A DNA stretch of 64,000 nucleotides from Carex sylvatica (lineage: Eukaryota; Streptophyta; Magnoliopsida; Poales; Cyperaceae). The stretch lies in assembly GCA_964058845.1 (NCBI GenBank), contig CAXKVR010000140.1, forward strand, positions 124,001-188,000. The letters run 5' to 3'. Shown piece by piece: positions 28,268 through 38,551 of the stretch; within the stretch, counting starts at the first letter, position 1, and each line of letters begins with the position of its first letter. The translations under genes were made by a program, and so were the position numbers. The notes below the pieces were generated by a model that was not told where the DNA came from, did not search any database, and worked only from the letters and a program-made list of their open reading frames with translations.

Positions 28268-28329
28268 GGCTAGAAATAGATATTACAATAATAAAGGAGA
28301 AAATGAATGCCCATGGTAGTGAAATAGTG

Positions 28330-28558
28330 CGGCCATTTTTATTAATACCCAAAAAACAAAACTAAATTTTAAAAATAACCTTAACCAATTTTTTTTTTTA
28401 AAAATAACCCAACCGCCCGGGCCCGGGGCGGCCCAAAAAACAACCCACCCGCCTGGGCCTCGGGCGGGCCACATGGAGAGCAAACCGCCCCCACTGCGGG
28501 CGGTCCAATGGTGAGCAAACCGCCCCAGGGTCGGGCGGTCCACTATGCAGCATTTAAA
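28330..28558 (+). repeat. MULE left terminal inverted repeat
   Basis: A 229-bp end, AT-rich at the tip and then GC-rich with repeated GGGCGG/CCGCCC words (28410-28540), ending GCATTTAAA. It probably holds the promoter of the PMD gene; TTTAAA at its inner edge could act as a TATA-like element. Confidence 0.92.
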
Positions 28559-28812
28559 CCCAGCAGCTCTCTCCCCATTCCCTTCTCTGCCTCCCCTCCG
28601 CACCAGAACCAGGAAAAAGAAAAAAAAAACCCCAGCCCCAGCCAAGTCCGCCCCCACCCCCGCCGCCGGTGCTCCGCCCTTGTCTCCGCCGCTGCTGCGC
28701 CACTCCTCTCCTCTCCCTCGCTCGCTCACTCTCTCTCTCGCTCGTACCTCCCCGCCCACGAATCCGCAACTCTCCGCGGTCTACCTCGTTGGAATTGCTC
28801 CATTTCTCTCGG
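28559..28812 (+). promoter_or_regulatory. Predicted non-coding first exon of the PMD gene
   Basis: CT-rich, GC-rich leader downstream of the terminal repeat, ending at CTCGG followed by GTAAGTTTT, a strong splice donor. The matching acceptor is TGTAAATGTAG ending at 31096, two bases before the ATG. This predicts a 2,284-bp 5'-leader intron. ORFs across this region are overlapping C/G-rich frames with no family features. Confidence 0.6.
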
Positions 28813-28861
28813 GTAAGTTTTCGATTCGATTGAATGCGATTAAGTTGTGTAATTGTTGAAA

Positions 28862-29125
28862 TCGAGTTGATTCGGTTCGATTCGATTCAAATCAATTCGG
28901 TTAAAATCGATTCGGTTCGATTCGGTTAAAATCGATTCGGTTCGATTCGGTTAAAATCGATTTGGTTCGATTCGGTTAAAATCGATTCGATTGTGATTAA
29001 ATTGTGTAATTATTGAAATCGAATTGATTCGGTTGATTCGGTTCGATTCGATTCAAATCGATTCGGTTGATTTGGTTCGATTCGATTCAAATCGATTCGG
29101 TTCGACTCGATTGTGATGAAATTGT
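28862..29125. repeat. GATTCGGTT-type tandem repeat in the PMD leader intron
   Basis: Many copies of TTCGATTCGGTTAAAATCGA-like units with a period near 10-30 bp. They begin just after the donor site and likely grew by slippage. Confidence 0.8.
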
Positions 29126-29295
29126 GTAATTGTTGAATTCTATTCGATTGTGTAACTTATGTAAATGTAATTAAGTTGTGTAATTGTTAAATTCGATTCG
29201 ATTATGAATTGTTAGAATTGGTATAATGTCACGAATTATGGAAATTGGGAGTTATTAATAAATGCTATTAAATTGCAGAAATTGCGGTATTAAAT

Positions 29296-30340
29296 TTTGA
29301 AATTATAATTGCGGTAATTATGTATTTTTTTTTGAAATTATAAATGCTATTAAATTATGTAAATGCTATTAAATTATGTAAATGTTATTAAATTGCGGGA
29401 ATTGCGGGATTAAATTTTAAAATTATAAATGCTATTAAATTATGTATTTATTTTCTTTGAGGTAAAAACGGTAATTCTTACATGCAAAATTTAGTGAAAC
29501 GTCAAATCTTATCAAGGAAAAAAATTCCAACTAATTTGCAGAAATTATGTATTTTTTTTTGAAATTATAAATGCTATTAAATTATGTAAATGTTATTAAA
29601 TTGCGGGAATTGCGGGATTAAATTTTAAAATTATAAATGCTATTAAATTATGTATTTATTTTCTTTGAGGTAAAAACGGTAATTCTTACATGCAAAATTT
29701 AGTGAAACGTCAAATCTTATCAAGGAAAAAAATTCCAACTAATTTGCAGAAATTATGTATTTTTTTTTGAAATTATAAATGCTATTAAATTATATAAATG
29801 TTATTAAATTGCGGGAATTGCGGGATTAAATTTTAAAATTATAAATGCTATTAAATTATGTATTTATTTTCTTTGAGGTAAAAACGGTAATTCTTACATG
29901 CAAAATTTAGTGAAACGTCAAATCTTATCAAGGAAAAAAATTCCAACTAATTTGCAGAAATAATGTATTTTCTTTTGAAATTATAAATGCTATTAAATTA
30001 TGTAAATGCTATTAAATTATGTAAATGTTATTAAATTGCGGGAATTGCGGGATTAAATTTTAAAATTATAAATGCTATTAAATTATGTATTTTTTTCTTT
30101 GAGGTAAAAACGGTAATTCTTACATGCAAAATTTAGTGAAACGTCAAATCTTATCAAGGAAAAAAATTCCAACTAATTTGCAGAAATAATGTTTTTTTTT
30201 TGAAATTATAAATGCTATTAAATTGCGAGAATTGCGGGATTAAATTTTAAAATTATAAATGCTATTAAATTATGAATTTTTTTCTTTGAGAAAACAGTAA
30301 TTCTTCCATGCAAAATTTAGTGAAACGTCAAATTTTATAA
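29296..30340. repeat. ~207-bp tandem array in the PMD leader intron, about 4.5 copies
   Basis: GGTAAAAACGGTAATTCTTA starts near 29461, 29668, 29877 and 30103, with a decayed copy near 30290. Each unit also carries TTAGTGAAACGTCAAATCTT, TTCCAACTAATTTGCAGAAA and TATTAAATTGCGGGAATTGC. Units 1-3 are nearly identical. Confidence 0.9.
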
Positions 30341-30581
30341 AATGGAAATATATATTGTGTGATTATATAAAATATGTTATTTAGTATATAAGTTATGCAT
30401 TTTTTATTTTTTTGAGAAAAGATCGTAGGTAGATAATTTATGTATTTGACTACATTAAAGAGTTAACTATTTGATTACATCAATAGATAAAATTGAATAT
30501 TTAGAGGGGATTGAGAATAAAATAATAAATTATTGTAATATTTAAAAAAAAATTACACAATTTTGTTTCCATATATAATAT

Positions 30582-30672
30582 GTTATAATATATTACAATT
30601 TTATTGTTATAATATATTATAATTTTATTGTTATAATATATTATAATTTTATTGTTATAATATATTATAGTT
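30582..30672. repeat. 27-bp AT-rich tandem repeat
   Basis: About three and a half copies of TTTTATTGTTATAATATATT with small changes, in the same intron. A frame across it gives a repetitive peptide and is not a gene. Confidence 0.85.
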
Positions 30673-31097
30673 TTGGTGATGTTGAAGGTATTTTGAAGTT
30701 GACGAAACACATGTATATATCAATATAAATTAATTTCAAGTAAAACAAATTATTTTAAAGTATATGAAAATTTGTTTAAAAATTACATTTTTTTTTGCAA
30801 GTAAATTATCAATATTTAAGAAAAATATATGTATACTTATGTTTTTTCCAAATTTTATTTGTTTGTCGATTTTCACAATAATTTTTATTTTAAAAAGTGA
30901 ATTTCATACTATATAAAAGTTTATTGAATTTCAGGGTTTGAATTTCATACTATTTTAGGGTTTTAATTGCTTGAATTTGCAGTTCAATTAGGGTTTGAAT
31001 TTGGTTGAAAATATTTATAAATTGTTTCAAATTTCGAATAAATTTTAATTTTTAAAATTTGTGGTTGATTAATATGGATTTTTTTTGTAAATGTAGT

Positions 31098-34000
31098 ATG
31101 CCCAGATCTAGACGGTGGGGAGTACGAGCTGCGCCTGCAGCGGATCCGGCTGCAGCGGGTCCAGATGCCGTGGATCCGAGTGTAGCGGGCACGTCCTCGG
31201 TGGATCCGATTGGAGAGGGTCCGTCGTCATATGAGGATCCGATTGGAGCGGGTTCTCAGGCTGGTTTTACAGATGGTGCGCATGATCCTGACACATTTAG
31301 TCCTCTTCTATGGACCCATCATGTTAAGCACCGCGTCTCATTGGCATCTCTTGAGGTACGTGATTTTTATACTTAATGTAAATAAATAATACTAAAAAAA
31401 TGGCACGATTTGAGTCTCATAAATTGATAATAAATACAGGATGATGTCATGCTTACGGTGAGGCACCGCAGGTCTGAGATTCCGTTCGTTCCCCATGAAG
31501 AAATGCAGCGATGCCTCTTGAACCTTGGGTTGTATCAGCTTGCCACTATGCCGCAGAGTAAGATCGATCAGTCTCTGATGCATGGTCTAGCGGAGAGATG
31601 GCGACCTGAGACCCATACATTTCATCTCCCGGTCGGAGAGATGACAGTCACCCTTGGTGATGTGAGCGCATTATGGGGTTTACCCATTGATGGCGAGCCC
31701 ATAGGTGGCATCTCAGACCATCCAAACCTGCAGAGGATGATACCGGAGTTGTTAGGGTGTGATCCAAATAATCTGCAGAAGAAATTGAAGAAGAAGAAGA
31801 AGAAGGGGGAGGAGGAGGAGGAGTTCCGGTATTCTGGGTACTGTATTTCTCTAAAGGCACTCCGGTCTCACTTCTTTCAGAATCAGATATTTCCTGAGAC
31901 TGCTGACATTGAGGCGGTCCGGAGGTACCATTACACTCGTTAAAGTAACTTAGTAGTTAATCAACAATCTCAATTATTTATATTGATTATTTTATATTGC
32001 AGGTATACTAGGGCGTATGTGCTGGATTTGTGTGGTGCTGTCATGTTCGAGGATTCCAGCGGTGATGCGGTCCCGATTATGTACCTCTCCCTGCTGAGAA
32101 ACATGGAGAAAGAATCGAGATGGAACTGGGGTGGAGCTGTCCTCGCCCACTTATACAGAGGCCTGTGTCATGCCTGTCTGGTAAGTCTGTATTAATATAC
32201 GTTGTAATTGAAAATTGAATAAGACGCACCAAGATTTTATTTTAAGTTAAATTTTCAGGTGAGGAATAAACAGATTTTTGGACCGCTTCTTCTGCTACAG
32301 CATTGGTCGTGGTCACATCTTCCTGTAAATCGGCCAGTTATACCATTGCCACATCCCCGATGGGGAGTTCCTACCCCAGACAGATGCCCCGCGTACGGTG
32401 CCATATGGGGCTGTCATCAGAGTTATGAAGAAACAGGCAGGGGGGTTTCTTATGTTCGAGGTCAGCTCCAGATGCTCCGAGATGCGAATGTCGATTGGTT
32501 TCCGTATCGTACATGGTATCAGCGTAGATGGCTGAGCCCGCTGACACTGGAGCAGACACGACTATGGTATTATCGGGGACCAGTCGTTTGTTTCTGGATA
32601 GTGGAGTATCACTATCCCGATCGGGTGTCTCGACAATTTGGCTTGGATGCTTTCATTCCGGATAACCCGCTGATGGGTAAGGATGATACCGACAAGTTTC
32701 ACAAGTAAGTACTATGTACTTAATTTTATTATCACTTTAATAATGTCACCGTTTCTCTCATTTCTAATTAATTGTACCTATAGTACGGCGCACACCAAGC
32801 CCAAAGTCGACTGGAGACAGCATTTCAGCTTGGAGTACGGCTTGGCTCGACATCCGGATCAGCAGTTATGGAGTCCGCCATCGGGAGCGTCAGTGGGTGC
32901 TGGTCCCGGGGATTTGAGATATGCCGTCTGGTACCAGAGATGGGGCATGCCGTCAGTCTATCTTACGGGCCATTATGGCGACAACCTTCGACGTAGACTG
33001 ATGGATTCATCTGGCAATTACATGCCTTGGGGTCCGATCAATGCTCGCGCGGTAAATACAACTTAAACATACGGTAATTACAAATTGCAAATTTTAATTA
33101 CTTACTGTTGTCATAATCATGTTGTGTGCAGATGTTGACAGCTATGAGAGGAGTTGGACACAGCCTGGTGTGCATGGCGAGGGATGCTTGGCGATATATA
33201 GGATGCCAAATGCTTGAGCACACTGCACCAATCGTGGAGACAGGCGGTTTTGAAGGCCGCCTCGTTGGCATGCTGCGCGATTCTGGGGAGAACATCAATT
33301 GGCGGGATATACAGAAGACACCGCGTAATCCAGATTATCAACCAGAGGCCATATACGCTCAGGATATGCCACCACCTCCTGCAGGTAATTGCAAGTTAAT
33401 ATTAAAAGTAGGACACACACAATGGTTCTATTTTCACCGAATTATTTGTTGTAACTCATTTAACTTTCAATTATGTAGAGGATGACTCGGGTTGGGCGTT
33501 CCACCACTGGGTGTTGAATACACAAGGATGGGACGCTTACAGAAATAAATACGGAGTTCCGGTAGAGCTTGGCCCGGTCAGTTACTGTTTTATATTATTT
33601 ATTGCAGAGTTATTTGTATGTAGCAAAACTGACATTATTTCAATTTAGGATGGAGCACCTCGTTGGAATGCCGAGCCTAGTTTTAGCGTGGATGAGCTGC
33701 CCCCGTTCGATACAGATGCTGAGGACATTGGCTCCCACAGGCCACGATATGGAGTGCAGATGGAGCACGACTACGAGGCTGGAGGGAGTGCATCTCAGAC
33801 TGCAGATGGCTTTGTCTCTGCATTATTTGGTACAGCGCCTCCTGCCACGTATGCTGCAAGCTGGGAGGAAGATCCATGGGAGCTACGTACAGGCCCGGCA
33901 CCCGCAGAGTCAGCTGGTCTATTTGATCCATGGACATCCGGTACAGGTACGCATCACATGTATACGGGAGAGGAGGACGAGGATATGGAGGAGGAGGATT

Positions 34001-34101
34001 TAGGAGATGCGAGTCCGCAGAGGCGCGTGCAGCCGCACAGGGATGGCAAAGGCATAGCGGCTCGTAGGTTGTCTCCCTCCGGCAGGAAACGACGAGGATG
34101 A
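31098..34101 (+). CDS. Plant mobile domain (PMD) protein encoded by the MULE, 8 coding exons
   Basis: Exons: 31098-31355, 31440-31924, 32003-32180, 32259-32704, 32784-33051, 33132-33384, 33479-33576 and 33649-34101. All are GT-AG and the frame is maintained for 812 aa. The start MPRSRRWG sits two bases after a predicted leader-intron acceptor. Residues 1-86 are Ala/Pro/Gly-rich. The PMD core follows, with GLYQLATMP, HTFHLPVGEMTVTLGDVSALWGLPIDG, RRYTRAYVLDLCGAVMF, WGGAVLAHLYRGLC, LLQHWSWSHLP and VDWFPY. A Lys/Glu-rich insert (KKKKKKGEEEEE) interrupts it. The C-terminus is acidic and then basic (RRLSPSGRKRRG), a possible nuclear signal. PMD proteins include Arabidopsis MAIN and MAIL1 and many transposon-borne copies, often mislabelled phosphatase 7 long form; no phosphatase motif is seen here. 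By position it takes the place of mudrB in MuDR. Its role in transposition is unknown. Confidence 0.92.
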
Positions 34102-34447
34102 TTGCAGAGTTTTTTTTATTGTGATGTAGGTCTGACTGTAGTATTTTGAGTTTGCAGCTGTTGTGTTATATGTCTTGGTTTGTTTTATTTTATATTTCAT
34201 GTTGACTTTTATCTTTTTTTTACTTTACATTTCGTCGTTTTTATCTGCGTGCATATCTTTTTGTATGTAGCATTTCGTCATTTCTACTCATTAGTTACTA
34301 CGTAATCATAAAAAATCAAAATATTACATATCATATTAAAAGCCCAACATTACAATTAAAGTTCAACAACACAATTAAAGTTCATATTTTAGTTAAAACC
34401 AAACAAATAAGTTCACACAACACAAGTAAGTTCACACAATAGCAGGT

Positions 34448-37400
34448 TTATCTGCCCCTTCCACCACGTCTCAAAAAACCAATGATGCGACTAGTTCTAC
34501 TGGTACCAACTGCAGGTGCGGCATTACTTGTAGAGGCTTGGCAACTAGATGATTGGCTCGGAGGAGGGGGATGTTCTGTTCTACCAGTTGCTTCAGCAAC
34601 AACTCTAGCATTTTCTCTTTCGTTGTGCTCGTTTATGGCATCTGAACATAGGAACACAATTCAATTAGTAATATAATAAGATCATAAATGAATTTCGTAC
34701 AATGCTACATACCTGCCGTGCGCCTGTCAGAAACAGAACGGCGAGCCCGATTTCCCGACGGTCGCCTACCACCCATCTCGTCCATGGTCATTACAACACG
34801 CTTGTGTCTCCTCCTCCCCTTTCTTATCCATCCTTCTGAAGGAAGTATTCTATCACCGACATATGCAGGCCACTCATGCTGATCGGGATAAGAATGGAAA
34901 GATCCACCCCAAGTGGAAGCAAGGTAATCGGTACGATACATGTCAGCAACATAGTGATCCTCACAGTAGTTCCTCACTCGGCATACAGCCATCACGTGAC
35001 TACAGGGTATGTGACTTAGTTGGGGTCCTTGGCATGTACAGGTTACCGCCCTGGCATCTCCAAATTTAACCACGTACTTGCAAGCCCTCTTCACAAACTC
35101 CATAGTGCCATCTGGTTTGCGACTGGTAGGAGCATATTCATTTGGATTTTGCACTTCGAATTCAGTACCATCATTACCCATCGGGATTACGGTCATAGTT
35201 GCACCTTTCTCCCTGTGTTGTCTTAGTTTTTCCTCCACCCTTGTTGAAAATGACTGATTAATCCTTATTAATTCTGCGGCCTTAGCACGCCGTTCCTGAA
35301 ACCAGGCATTTAACTTGTAGAATGTATCCTCTACAACTGCAGCCACGGGCAACATCCGACTCTGCTTGAATACTGCATTCAGCGACTCCGACCCGTTGGT
35401 GGTCATAATTCCCCAACGCCAACCTCCATCACGGGATTGATATATTTTCTCGTATGCTGGATCTTCGTTTACATCTCTGGGATTATTTTTGCCCACCTTC
35501 ATTAAGTAGAGATTTGCCTTTGGCATGTACTAAAAAAATAAGAAAATAAAATAATATAAGTAAATAATTGTACTAAAAAAACAGTCTTCGGAAAATAAAA
35601 TAATATATGTAAACAATTGAAATATATATACCTTTGCAAAATTTCTAGTCATCTCTACCACCCTTCTCGGTTTTTTCTTTCTGCAATTTTGTCTAAATGT
35701 TTCTAGAACCCACTTGTCATTTCCGGTTGCCTTGGAAAGGTTCTCCGCAACGTGTTGCATACACAACCTGTGCACACACTGCCCAGTACGCGTTGACCAA
35801 CCGTAATCTTCACGATCAAAAACATATTTTATTCCTTTGTGTTGGTCTGATATCACACAGAAAAATTTTTCTTTCCCAATCACCCGTCTTCTTAAAAACT
35901 GCATAAAGAATCCCCTGTTCTCACCATCCTCTTTCTGAACAATTGCAAAGGCCAAAGGTAACAACTGATTCTCAGCATCATATGCACATGCTATCAGTAG
36001 CCTCCCCTCATAACGGCCGGACATGAAGCATGCATCAATGCTGATAACGGGTCTGATGTATGGCACAGCTTGGATACAAGCCCCAAAAGCCCATGCTATG
36101 CCCTTGAATTGCTGAGCTCCCTCTATTAGTACTCCATCCTTATCAAAAAAAGGGCCATGCCATAGTTCATATACGGTCCCGATGTTTGTACTTGCCATGG
36201 CCTGGAGCAATGGTGCCAGATAGCCGTATGAATCCTTCCAACTACCGAATATTCTGCAAACCGCAAGTTCACGACCTCTCCACAGCCTGTTGTATTTTGG
36301 GATTACATATTTGTATTTGTGTCTGACGGTTCTAGCCACCGCCTTGATGCTCATCGATGGATCCAACTTAATGTCCTCCTCAATTGCATCGGCAATTAGT
36401 GATGCCGTCAGCTGTGCATGGTCTGTCCTTGTGGATGCAGACTTACATGTGTGAGGTGGTTCACACTTCCTAATCATCCATGCTTCCCCTGAACCCGCAG
36501 GGGTTGCATAAAGGCGGAACTCGCACCGCGGGTGAGTTTTACATAGCACAACTAACCGTGTTCGCTCTCTTTTATTTATTTTATATTCCCAGTTGCCGTG
36601 TACATGGGTCTCATTGATTTTCTTTACAAGTTCGTCTATGTTTGTATAAAGTTGCCCTGCAGCAAGTTCCTGATTGTATTTAACACGAGGACCAAAGAAA
36701 CTAATGTCTGCCTCTTCGAAAGCTGTAGTATCGTTGAATGTGGTGACCGGATGCTTATTTCCCCGACCTCTAATCGGGAATTTTTCTGCCCTGGATAAAC
36801 CTAGTACATTTGCATCACCATCTGATAAGTCATCAGATTCCCAAACCCCTTGGTATTCATCCCCCGTTTCCATTTCCCTTTCTGGTATGGCATCAATAGC
36901 ATCAACATCAATATCAATATCAGTTCGATTAACGGGTACCGGTCCTGACTCTGGCATAGTTGGAAATCTAGGGATTATGGGTGTCTGTCTGGGTGGTGGT
37001 GGTAACTCTTCAGTATTTTCAGGGGAGTTGTGGTACCCCTGGTTGTCACAAGGGGAGTGCTGGTGGTAAACCTGGTTGTCATAAGGGGAGTGCTGGTGGT
37101 ACCCCTGGTTGTCATAAGGGGAGTGATGCTGGTACCCCTGGTTGTCATATGGGGAGTGATGCTGGTACCCCTGGCTGTCATATGGGGAGTGATGCTGGTA
37201 CCCCTGGCTGTCATATGGGGAGTGCTGCTGGTACCACTGGCTGTCATATGGGGAGTGCTGCTGGTACCCCTGGCTGTCATATGGGGAGTGCTGCTGGTAC
37301 CCCTGATTGTCATAACCTGAATTTTCATAACCTGAAGGTCCAGCCCTAGTAGTACTTGAAGGTCCAGCCCTAGCCCGGAGAACCCTCTTCGAATATATGT

Positions 37401-37701
37401 CCATTACCTGGACCCCACTGGCCGCAAATTGAGTGTACACAACTCTCCACAAATTCGCATCTGTTATTGGAAACCTCACAAAGTAAGGTCTACCCCCCAC
37501 CCCACGTGAGTTGTCAATCCGTGTAGCCAATTCTATTTCATACCTGTTGGGGTTTACAGCAGTCTTTTCGTATATTAGCTCTTTAAGTGCCTGAAATGTG
37601 GTATTTTCATTAACCTCGAAGCCAAATGCAGCATCTTTCGTGTACTGCACGCCATCTTCACTCTTTTGTAACTTGCCGCCCACATACAATGCAACTAACA
37701 T
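34448..37701 (-). CDS. MURA-type (MuDR) transposase, 3 coding exons
   Basis: Exons 37701-35632, 35529-34713 and 34641-34448 join at GT-AG sites to give 1026 aa with no stops. Order: N-terminal PB1-like region (1-110); a Tyr/Gln/His/Pro repeat of 11-residue units such as YDSQGYQQHSP (~130-225); an acidic linker; a MuDR DNA-binding domain (~335-420, with CEFRLYATP); and a MULE transposase core (~550-650) with SIDACFMSGRYEGRLL, a second aspartate in VISDQHKGI, and CVHRLCMQHV. Exon 2 supplies the WRWGIMTTNGSESLN stretch and a SWIM zinc finger (CTCQ...IPCSH). A basic tail RRGGRGR ends exon 3. The protein would bind the terminal repeats and cut and join DNA in the nucleus. A leader intron is predicted (donor at 38200, acceptor at 37717), with the first exon at the right terminal repeat. 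Nothing essential appears missing, although the catalytic glutamate was not assigned with certainty. Confidence 0.95.
37030..37325 (-). repeat. 33-bp coding minisatellite in the transposase gene
   Basis: About nine to ten in-frame 33-bp units encode the YD(S/N)QGYQ(Q/H)HSP peptide. On the plus strand the unit reads TGGTACCCCTGGNTGTCATA. Frame-neutral unit length keeps the gene open while copy number varies. Confidence 0.92.
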
Positions 37702-38039
37702 CTTTTTCTTAACAAACTACATTTAAAAAATAACTTTATAAGTATTACAGTAATTGTACATCAATAATAGATATAGATATCTGAGATTCGCTTCAATCAA
37801 TTTTTGAGTTTCATTTTAAAAAAAAATTGAATAAATTGAAAAAGAAGAACATAAATATAGAACTCAATCAATGTATAGAACTTTAGGTTGTTGAAAATTA
37901 ATAATTAATTAATAAAATTATTTCTGACTAAATGAAATTAAAAACAATTAAGAAATGGAAAAAAATTAGTTGGTTTTCATTGAGAAATATGGTATTATAA
38001 CGGGTACAGTAATCTAATTAGAAAAAATAAAAAAAATAT

Positions 38040-38175
38040 TGCTACAGTAATTACATAGAACAGTAATTGCTACAGTACTTACATAGAACAGTAATTGATA
38101 CGGTAATTGCTACAGTAATTACATAGAACAGTAATTGCGACAGTTAAGTTACATATAATAGAACAGTAATTGCTA
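38040..38175. repeat. Short repeats in the transposase leader intron
   Basis: TACAGTAATTACATAGAACA and GTAATTGCTACAGT words recur four to five times between the predicted donor (38200) and acceptor (37717). Confidence 0.7.
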
Positions 38176-38313
38176 TAATAAAAATAAAAATAAAACATAC
38201 CTTCTGCTACAGTAAAATCGCTTAAAAATCGCCTCTCTCAAACAGTAAAATCGCTCTCAAACAGTAAAATTTCTCTCTGACTTCGTTTACAAATAATGGA
38301 GCCAGGAGAGGCT

Positions 38314-38542
38314 TTTAAATGCTGCATAGTGGACCGCCCGACCCTGGGGCGGTTTGCTCACCATTGGACCGCCCGCAGTGGGGGCGGTTTGCTCTCCATG
38401 TGGCCCGCCCGAGGCCCAGGCGGGTGGGTTGTTTTTTGGGCCGCCCCGGGCCCGGGCGGTTGGGTTATTTTTAAAAAAAAAAATTGGTTAAGGTTATTTT
38501 TAAAATTTAGTTTTGTTTTTTGGGTATTAATAAAAATGGCCG
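38314..38542 (-). repeat. MULE right terminal inverted repeat
   Basis: Reverse complement of 28330-28558, identical as read. On the minus strand its inner edge GCATTTAAA is followed by the predicted transposase leader exon, which ends at GTAGCAGAAG before GTATGTTT. Confidence 0.92.
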
Positions 38543-38551
38543 GAAATAGTG

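Follow-up and report, generated by a model that had tools for sequence, protein, structure and literature searches.

A complete and apparently autonomous MULE, with both ends and both genes intact, was found at positions 28330 to 38542 of the window, by which we mean the whole 64,000-nucleotide stretch of Carex sylvatica DNA analysed here. The second gene, which encodes a plant mobile domain (PMD) protein, was not captured in this copy but has long been a fixed accompaniment of one set of MULEs, where it is paired in one orientation with the gene for the MURA transposase. We put it at only just short of an even chance that the 2 genes form a TIR-driven pair in which MURA is accompanied by a VANC-like, DNA-binding counter-silencer, with the PMD protein reading an array in the leader of its own family.

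The earlier note on this DNA had described a young, intact MULE with 2 convergent genes and PMD in the accessory slot, inverted ends identical over 229 bp, a perfect 9-bp duplication, and a 1026-aa MURA-type transposase and an 812-aa PMD protein open across canonical introns, and this description was confirmed throughout. The TIR arms were complementary at 229 of 229 positions (100%), GAAATAGTG was present at each flank, and splicing reproduced both protein lengths, with GT-AG borders in 7 of 7 PMD introns and 2 of 2 MURA introns. The splice sites of both genes were predicted from the reading frame, the GT-AG rule and the 7 PMD introns shared with 2 copies of a sister subfamily, in which they occupy identical places. 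The 9-bp TSD, the long TIRs and a MULE domain scoring above the Pfam cut-off place the element in the Mutator superfamily, and the left TIR is presumed to be the promoter of the PMD gene (Table 1). The window copy is apparently a recent, MuDR-like insertion.

Table 1. Positions of the ends, genes and repeats of the element in the window
Feature	Position	Strand	Description
TSD, left copy	28321..28329	.	9 bp, GAAATAGTG; flank sequence
Left TIR	28330..28558	+	229 bp; GC-rich internal repeats of 35-36 bp
Putative PMD leader intron	28813..31096	+	Donor GTAAGT (28813) to acceptor AG (last base 31096), with one base between it and ATG; from sequence reading
GATTCGGTT array	28869..29102	+	9-mer, 10 units, single orientation; in putative PMD leader intron
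208-bp tandem repeat	29360..30244	+	About 4 copies, inside PMD leader
PMD gene	31098..34101	+	8 exons, 812 aa; PF10536 at residues 116-468
PMD exons	31098-31355, 31440-31924, 32003-32180, 32259-32704, 32784-33051, 33132-33384, 33479-33576, 33649-34101	+	Splicing by frame and GT-AG
PMD domain part	31860..32180	+	Residues 227-307; site of weak DUF1985 (VANC domain) similarity in relatives, placed by hand in the window protein
MURA transposase gene	34448..37701	-	3 exons (37701-35632, 35529-34713, 34641-34448), 1026 aa; MULE domain at residues 552-654, SWIM at 849-875
33-bp minisatellite	36998..37360	-	In frame in MURA exon 1 (11-aa repeat)
Putative MURA leader intron	37717..38200	-	GTATGT donor at 38200; AAATGTAG acceptor 15 nt 5' of ATG; from sequence reading
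Right TIR	38314..38542	-	229 bp, same sequence as left TIR
TSD, right copy	38543..38551	.	9 bp, GAAATAGTG; flank sequence, perfect match to left copy

The PMD domain (PF10536) matched the window PMD protein with 223.9 bits (cut-off 34.9) over profile positions 1 to 317 of 347, and no other Pfam domain was found in this protein at E ≤ 1e-3. Its nearest relative was a protein of C. littledalei (62% identity over 70%), while the nearest relative of the MURA protein was found in C. rostrata (92% identity over 83% of the searched part). At the same E-value, the window MURA matched the MULE domain (PF10551, 39.0 bits, cut-off 27.6) and SWIM (PF04434, 24.6 bits, cut-off 19.6), and had no match at 1e-3 to the N-terminal zinc finger DBD_Tnp_Mut (PF03108), which was matched by 35 of 42 relatives at E ≤ 5. 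It was also noted that the length of the MURA gene varies among intact copies by multiples of 33 bp, the unit of the exon 1 minisatellite.

A search for the TIR in the genome (64 Mb in 950 contigs) identified at least 40 places, and 14 copies, including the window copy, were chosen and read across both genes. A perfect 9-bp TSD was present in 11 of the 14 copies, a TSD with one mismatch in one, and none was found in the remaining 2; the TIR pairs were 93% to 100% identical within the 12 copies compared. Both genes were open in 7 copies (the window copy, C844, C78, C282, C475, C559, and C221), in 6 one gene or both contained stops or frame breaks, and in C157 MURA was open and PMD broken by a Ty3/gypsy insertion. 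The earlier note would have given up its reading had every copy lacked a gene or carried stops, or had the PMD exons been captured in the window copy only; the 7 open copies speak against the former, and the latter is contradicted by the lasting linkage and the purifying selection described below. C157 (G000:C157:39806-59426), the closest sister copy, carries the 9.4-kb Ty3/gypsy element in PMD exon 2, with 2 identical LTRs of 2704 bp. Furthermore, the copies at G000:C943:16629 and G000:C170:192321 share the 12-base left flank TGTTACATATTT, which points to a duplicated segment and not to 2 insertions.

The pairing of the 2 genes was far more frequent than chance would give. A convergent PMD was nearest within 12 kb at 110 of the 140 MURA second-exon places among the matches listed (142 rows, with 2 split pairs merged), where about 2.4 would be expected under uniform chance, using 183 PMD places among the matches listed after split pieces and repeats had been dropped. 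The nearest PMD had the other orientation at 2 places, and 28 had no PMD match within 12 kb. MURA identity to the window ranged from 100% down to 46% at these places, and the pairing reached 46%. The identities of MURA and PMD to the window were correlated (Spearman 0.91 for 95 pairs, 0.74 for the 62 closer ones), although the copies do not represent independent observations. In a control analysis, 150 listed MULE-domain places were classified, using 181 PMD places: the 84 family places comprised 74 with a convergent PMD, one with a PMD that was not convergent and 9 with none, whereas the 66 non-family places comprised 10, 4, and 52, respectively. Among the 33 best-scoring places, none of the 32 non-family MULEs had a convergent PMD and one had a PMD in the other orientation. 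The co-occurrence in related MULEs that the earlier note had proposed as a check was thus observed.

We consider it very improbable that the PMD gene is a passenger, that is, a host gene captured as in Pack-MULEs and without a role for the element. MULEs do capture genes, and capture of host PMD-C by MULEs was inferred by Ikeda et al. (PMC5418596); moreover, 7 of the 28 unpaired MURA places were free of stops in the searched exon. The other 21, however, carried a stop there, and at the unpaired places C40, C236, and C60 a leader array was located only 2.1 to 3.4 kb from MURA, whereas this distance is about 5 kb in C751; to judge from the positions, an internal deletion would account for the difference. 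Purifying selection, an open PMD in half of the copies read and the one-orientation pairing with transposases of such low identity likewise stand against it. Pack-MULE capture, in the sense of a host gene that is neither maintained by selection nor durably linked, is contradicted by the open copies, the dN/dS values and the convergent pairing.

Both PMD and MURA are under purifying selection, as a further check proposed in the earlier note revealed, with dN/dS below 1 between the halves of the young subfamily and in comparisons with the sister subfamily. Between the halves, dN/dS was 0.15 to 0.36 for PMD and 0.23 to 0.36 for MURA, on few changes (8 copies, C157 included); within them the values were noisier, 0.15 to 0.59 for PMD and 0.18 to 1.38 for MURA, the top value being based on 6 changes. 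Against the sister subfamily (C751 and C600), PMD exons 2 to 8 gave dS values of 0.38 to 0.39 and dN/dS values of 0.36 to 0.38, and MURA exons 1 and 2 a dS of 0.22 and dN/dS values of 0.21 to 0.22. By thirds of PMD, dN/dS was 0.24, 0.27, and 0.72 between the window copy and C600, and between C751 and C600 it was 0.72 for PMD on 28 changes and 0.25 for MURA. Between the window copy and one and the same sister element, dS was 0.38 for PMD and 0.22 for MURA (window positions 31440-34101 and 34713-37701), as would be expected if the 2 genes differed in part in their history or in their rate of change.

What the PMD protein does was approached through its likeness to VANC21, the anti-silencing protein of the Arabidopsis element VANDAL21/Hiun. 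VANC21 recognises a 9-base motif whose copies are crowded together, all pointing the same way, in the introns and upstream regions of that element, and this motif has turned over by tandem repetition (PMC5735166). In models only, the PMD domain of relatives can be overlaid on the part of VANC21 that is bound to DNA. DUF1985 did not exceed the Pfam cut-off in the window PMD, nor in its relatives, where the matches were below it, and filing PMD as VANC was rejected on these grounds.

An array of similar layout is present in the putative PMD leader intron, where GATTCGGTT, with 10 units in 234 bp, is more strongly clustered than any other 9-mer, compared with at most 3 for any 9-mer in 100 shuffles of the leader. 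GATTCGGTT occurred 5 to 12 times per copy in all 14 copies of the window subfamily, and GAATTGGTT in none of them, whereas the sister subfamily contained 10 (C751) and 9 (C600) units of GAATTGGTT and no GATTCGGTT. Short-motif arrays that are non-coding, in one orientation and subfamily-specific were thus found in 2 subfamilies (14 and 2 copies) but not in the divergent element C332, in which a search for either array found none. The double unit of GATTCGGTT was present at 31 places in the genome and the triple unit of GAATTGGTT at 117 overlapping places, while the reversed control sequences of both units were found at 0 places. We regard the GATTCGGTT array as a candidate target of the PMD protein. 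It is nevertheless quite possible, if somewhat less than an even prospect, that PMD matters and that the arrays are products of slippage or sites for the transposase, uninformative on PMD. The PMD leader is rich in tandem repeats (units of 208, 25, and 24 bp), and the MURA leader region carries repeats of its own (TACTGTAGC and TACTGTTC, 4 each), with a repeat common to both subfamilies. On the other hand, the PMD leader repeats of the 2 subfamilies occupy the same location and derive from variants of a single 9-mer, differently homogenised and in a single orientation, and 25 of the 31 double-unit places are no more than 1.5 kb away from a TIR of this family.

Each of the 2 convergent genes starts near one TIR. 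According to the counter-silencing model, MURA would move the element ends, and the PMD protein would enter the nucleus and bind the short motif that is repeated in non-coding stretches of its family's elements, the candidates being GATTCGGTT in the PMD leader here and GAATTGGTT in the sister subfamily. Bound PMD might then lift or block silencing by the host and thereby permit transcription of both genes, by analogy with VANC for VANDAL elements. The earlier note had suggested that PMD may help transposition or counter silencing; the silencing role was a reasonable guess that can now be sharpened, as the fold, the sequence profile and the leader arrays favour a VANC-like counter-silencer, and the helper role becomes the rival.

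Maize MuDR has convergent genes, mudrA and mudrB, each starting at a TIR, a 9-bp TSD and a MURA-type transposase, in all of which the window element resembles it; the difference is that PMD here occupies the convergent slot of mudrB. The chief rival, which we judge unlikely, is a PMD protein that, like mudrB, assists the transposase at the TIRs, for instance during re-insertion, and does not affect silencing. The mudrB gene is "apparently required for integration" (PMC6446971), and the close PMD-MURA pairing and the modelled DNA-binding fold would fit a helper equally well. Against it stand the 32 best-scoring MULEs of other kinds in the control above, none of which has a convergent PMD, and 2 TIR-only elements, 1079 and 2208 bp long (G000:C316:13697-14775 and C231:129974-132181), with family TIRs, interiors unlike the window element, perfect 9-bp TSDs and neither PMD, MURA nor either array, although these show only that PMD is dispensable in cis. 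The existence of such elements suggests that the family ends are mobilised in trans, and since they lack both arrays, the arrays are not needed for being moved.

A decoy is distinctly improbable in our estimation: here PMD would compete for partners of the host MAIN/MAIL1/PP7L complex and weaken silencing without binding its own element. MAIN and MAIL1 are PMD proteins that bind PP7L and silence TEs (PMC7156037), and a counter-silencing role of TE-made PMD has been suggested in a review (PMC8616336), but a decoy alone leaves unexplained both the subfamily-specific 9-mer arrays and the closeness of the modelled fold to DNA-bound VANC21. The host proteins MAIN, MAIL1, and MAIL3 share the PF10536 domain with the window protein; in contrast to it, MAIN and MAIL1 are products of host genes promoting TE silencing, and none of the 3 is described inside TIRs.

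The counter-silencing model draws the window element close to VANDAL21/Hiun, also a MULE with accessory genes, whose VANC21 fold PMD relatives would share according to the models, and whose 9-bp motif arrays are likewise in one orientation, non-coding and different between subfamilies (PMC5735166). The 2 systems differ in that VANC has DUF1985 and DUF287, whereas the window accessory protein is PMD by Pfam, and in that Hiun has 2 accessory genes (VANB and VANC) and the window element one. VANDAL ends are described as non-TIR (PMC13317346) or as TIRs of 46 to 174 bp (PMC6446971), compared with 229 bp here. Features are also shared with MULE groups 47 to 50 of Dupeyron et al. 2019 (MULE-Monocots, MDR, MUDRAVI2, and MUDR), with TIRs, a 9-bp TSD where given, mostly SWIM, and PMD often antisense to the transposase, for which Table 1 of that paper records the presence of PMD only (PMC6446971). 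The earlier note's view of the system as poorly described does not hold for the pairing itself: that paper already tabulates PMD, often antisense, in the majority of members of several groups of plant MULEs, and Ikeda et al. 2017 described MULE PMDs as captured twice and speculated on anti-silencing (PMC5418596). The pairing as such had therefore been reported before; the relevant parts of these 2 papers contain neither tests of selection nor comparisons between copies nor a non-family control, and those of Dupeyron et al. assign no function to PMD.

The plant mobile domain has been termed a domain of unknown function (PMC8616336), and the likeness to VANC makes this long-unexplained family testable. 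We tentatively propose, while holding it to be on balance doubtful, that PMD and VANC form one DNA-binding superfamily, that PMD-MULEs run sequence-specific counter-silencing with the PMD of each subfamily tuned to a 9-bp array in the leader intron, and that MAIN and MAIL1, as relatives of a transposon-borne DNA reader, could read the "DOWN" promoter motif directly. This motif was found in 25 of 26 genes commonly down-regulated in MAIN and MAIL1 mutants (PMC7156037), and whether the MAIN/MAIL1 complex contacts chromatin or the motif has been named an open question (PMC9899485). If the counter-silencing model is true, MAIN and MAIL1 may also be DNA readers, and a fold shared, as modelled, with a DNA-bound anti-silencing protein would make the question open to a direct test of binding. 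The use of an accessory DNA reader against silencing would then not be special to Arabidopsis VANDALs and could be widespread in plant MULEs, because PMD is recorded in the majority of members of several MULE groups (PMC6446971).

A few observations concern more distant members. P0010, P0019, and 16 other PMD proteins showed weak similarity to DUF7745 in Pfam (best E 7.8e-5), which may represent another branch of the superfamily. In a separate lineage, nine copies (G000 C35, C190, C321, C387, C584, C665, C700, C843, and C877) had identical search scores for both genes, and probably stem from a very recent burst or from pieces duplicated in the assembly. Finally, the divergent element C332 (L061), of about 8.3 kb with its own TIRs and a 10-bp flanking repeat, contained a PMD domain encoded without introns in an exon of 474 codons, together with an unbroken MURA frame of 910 codons, so that intron content differs strongly among lineages.
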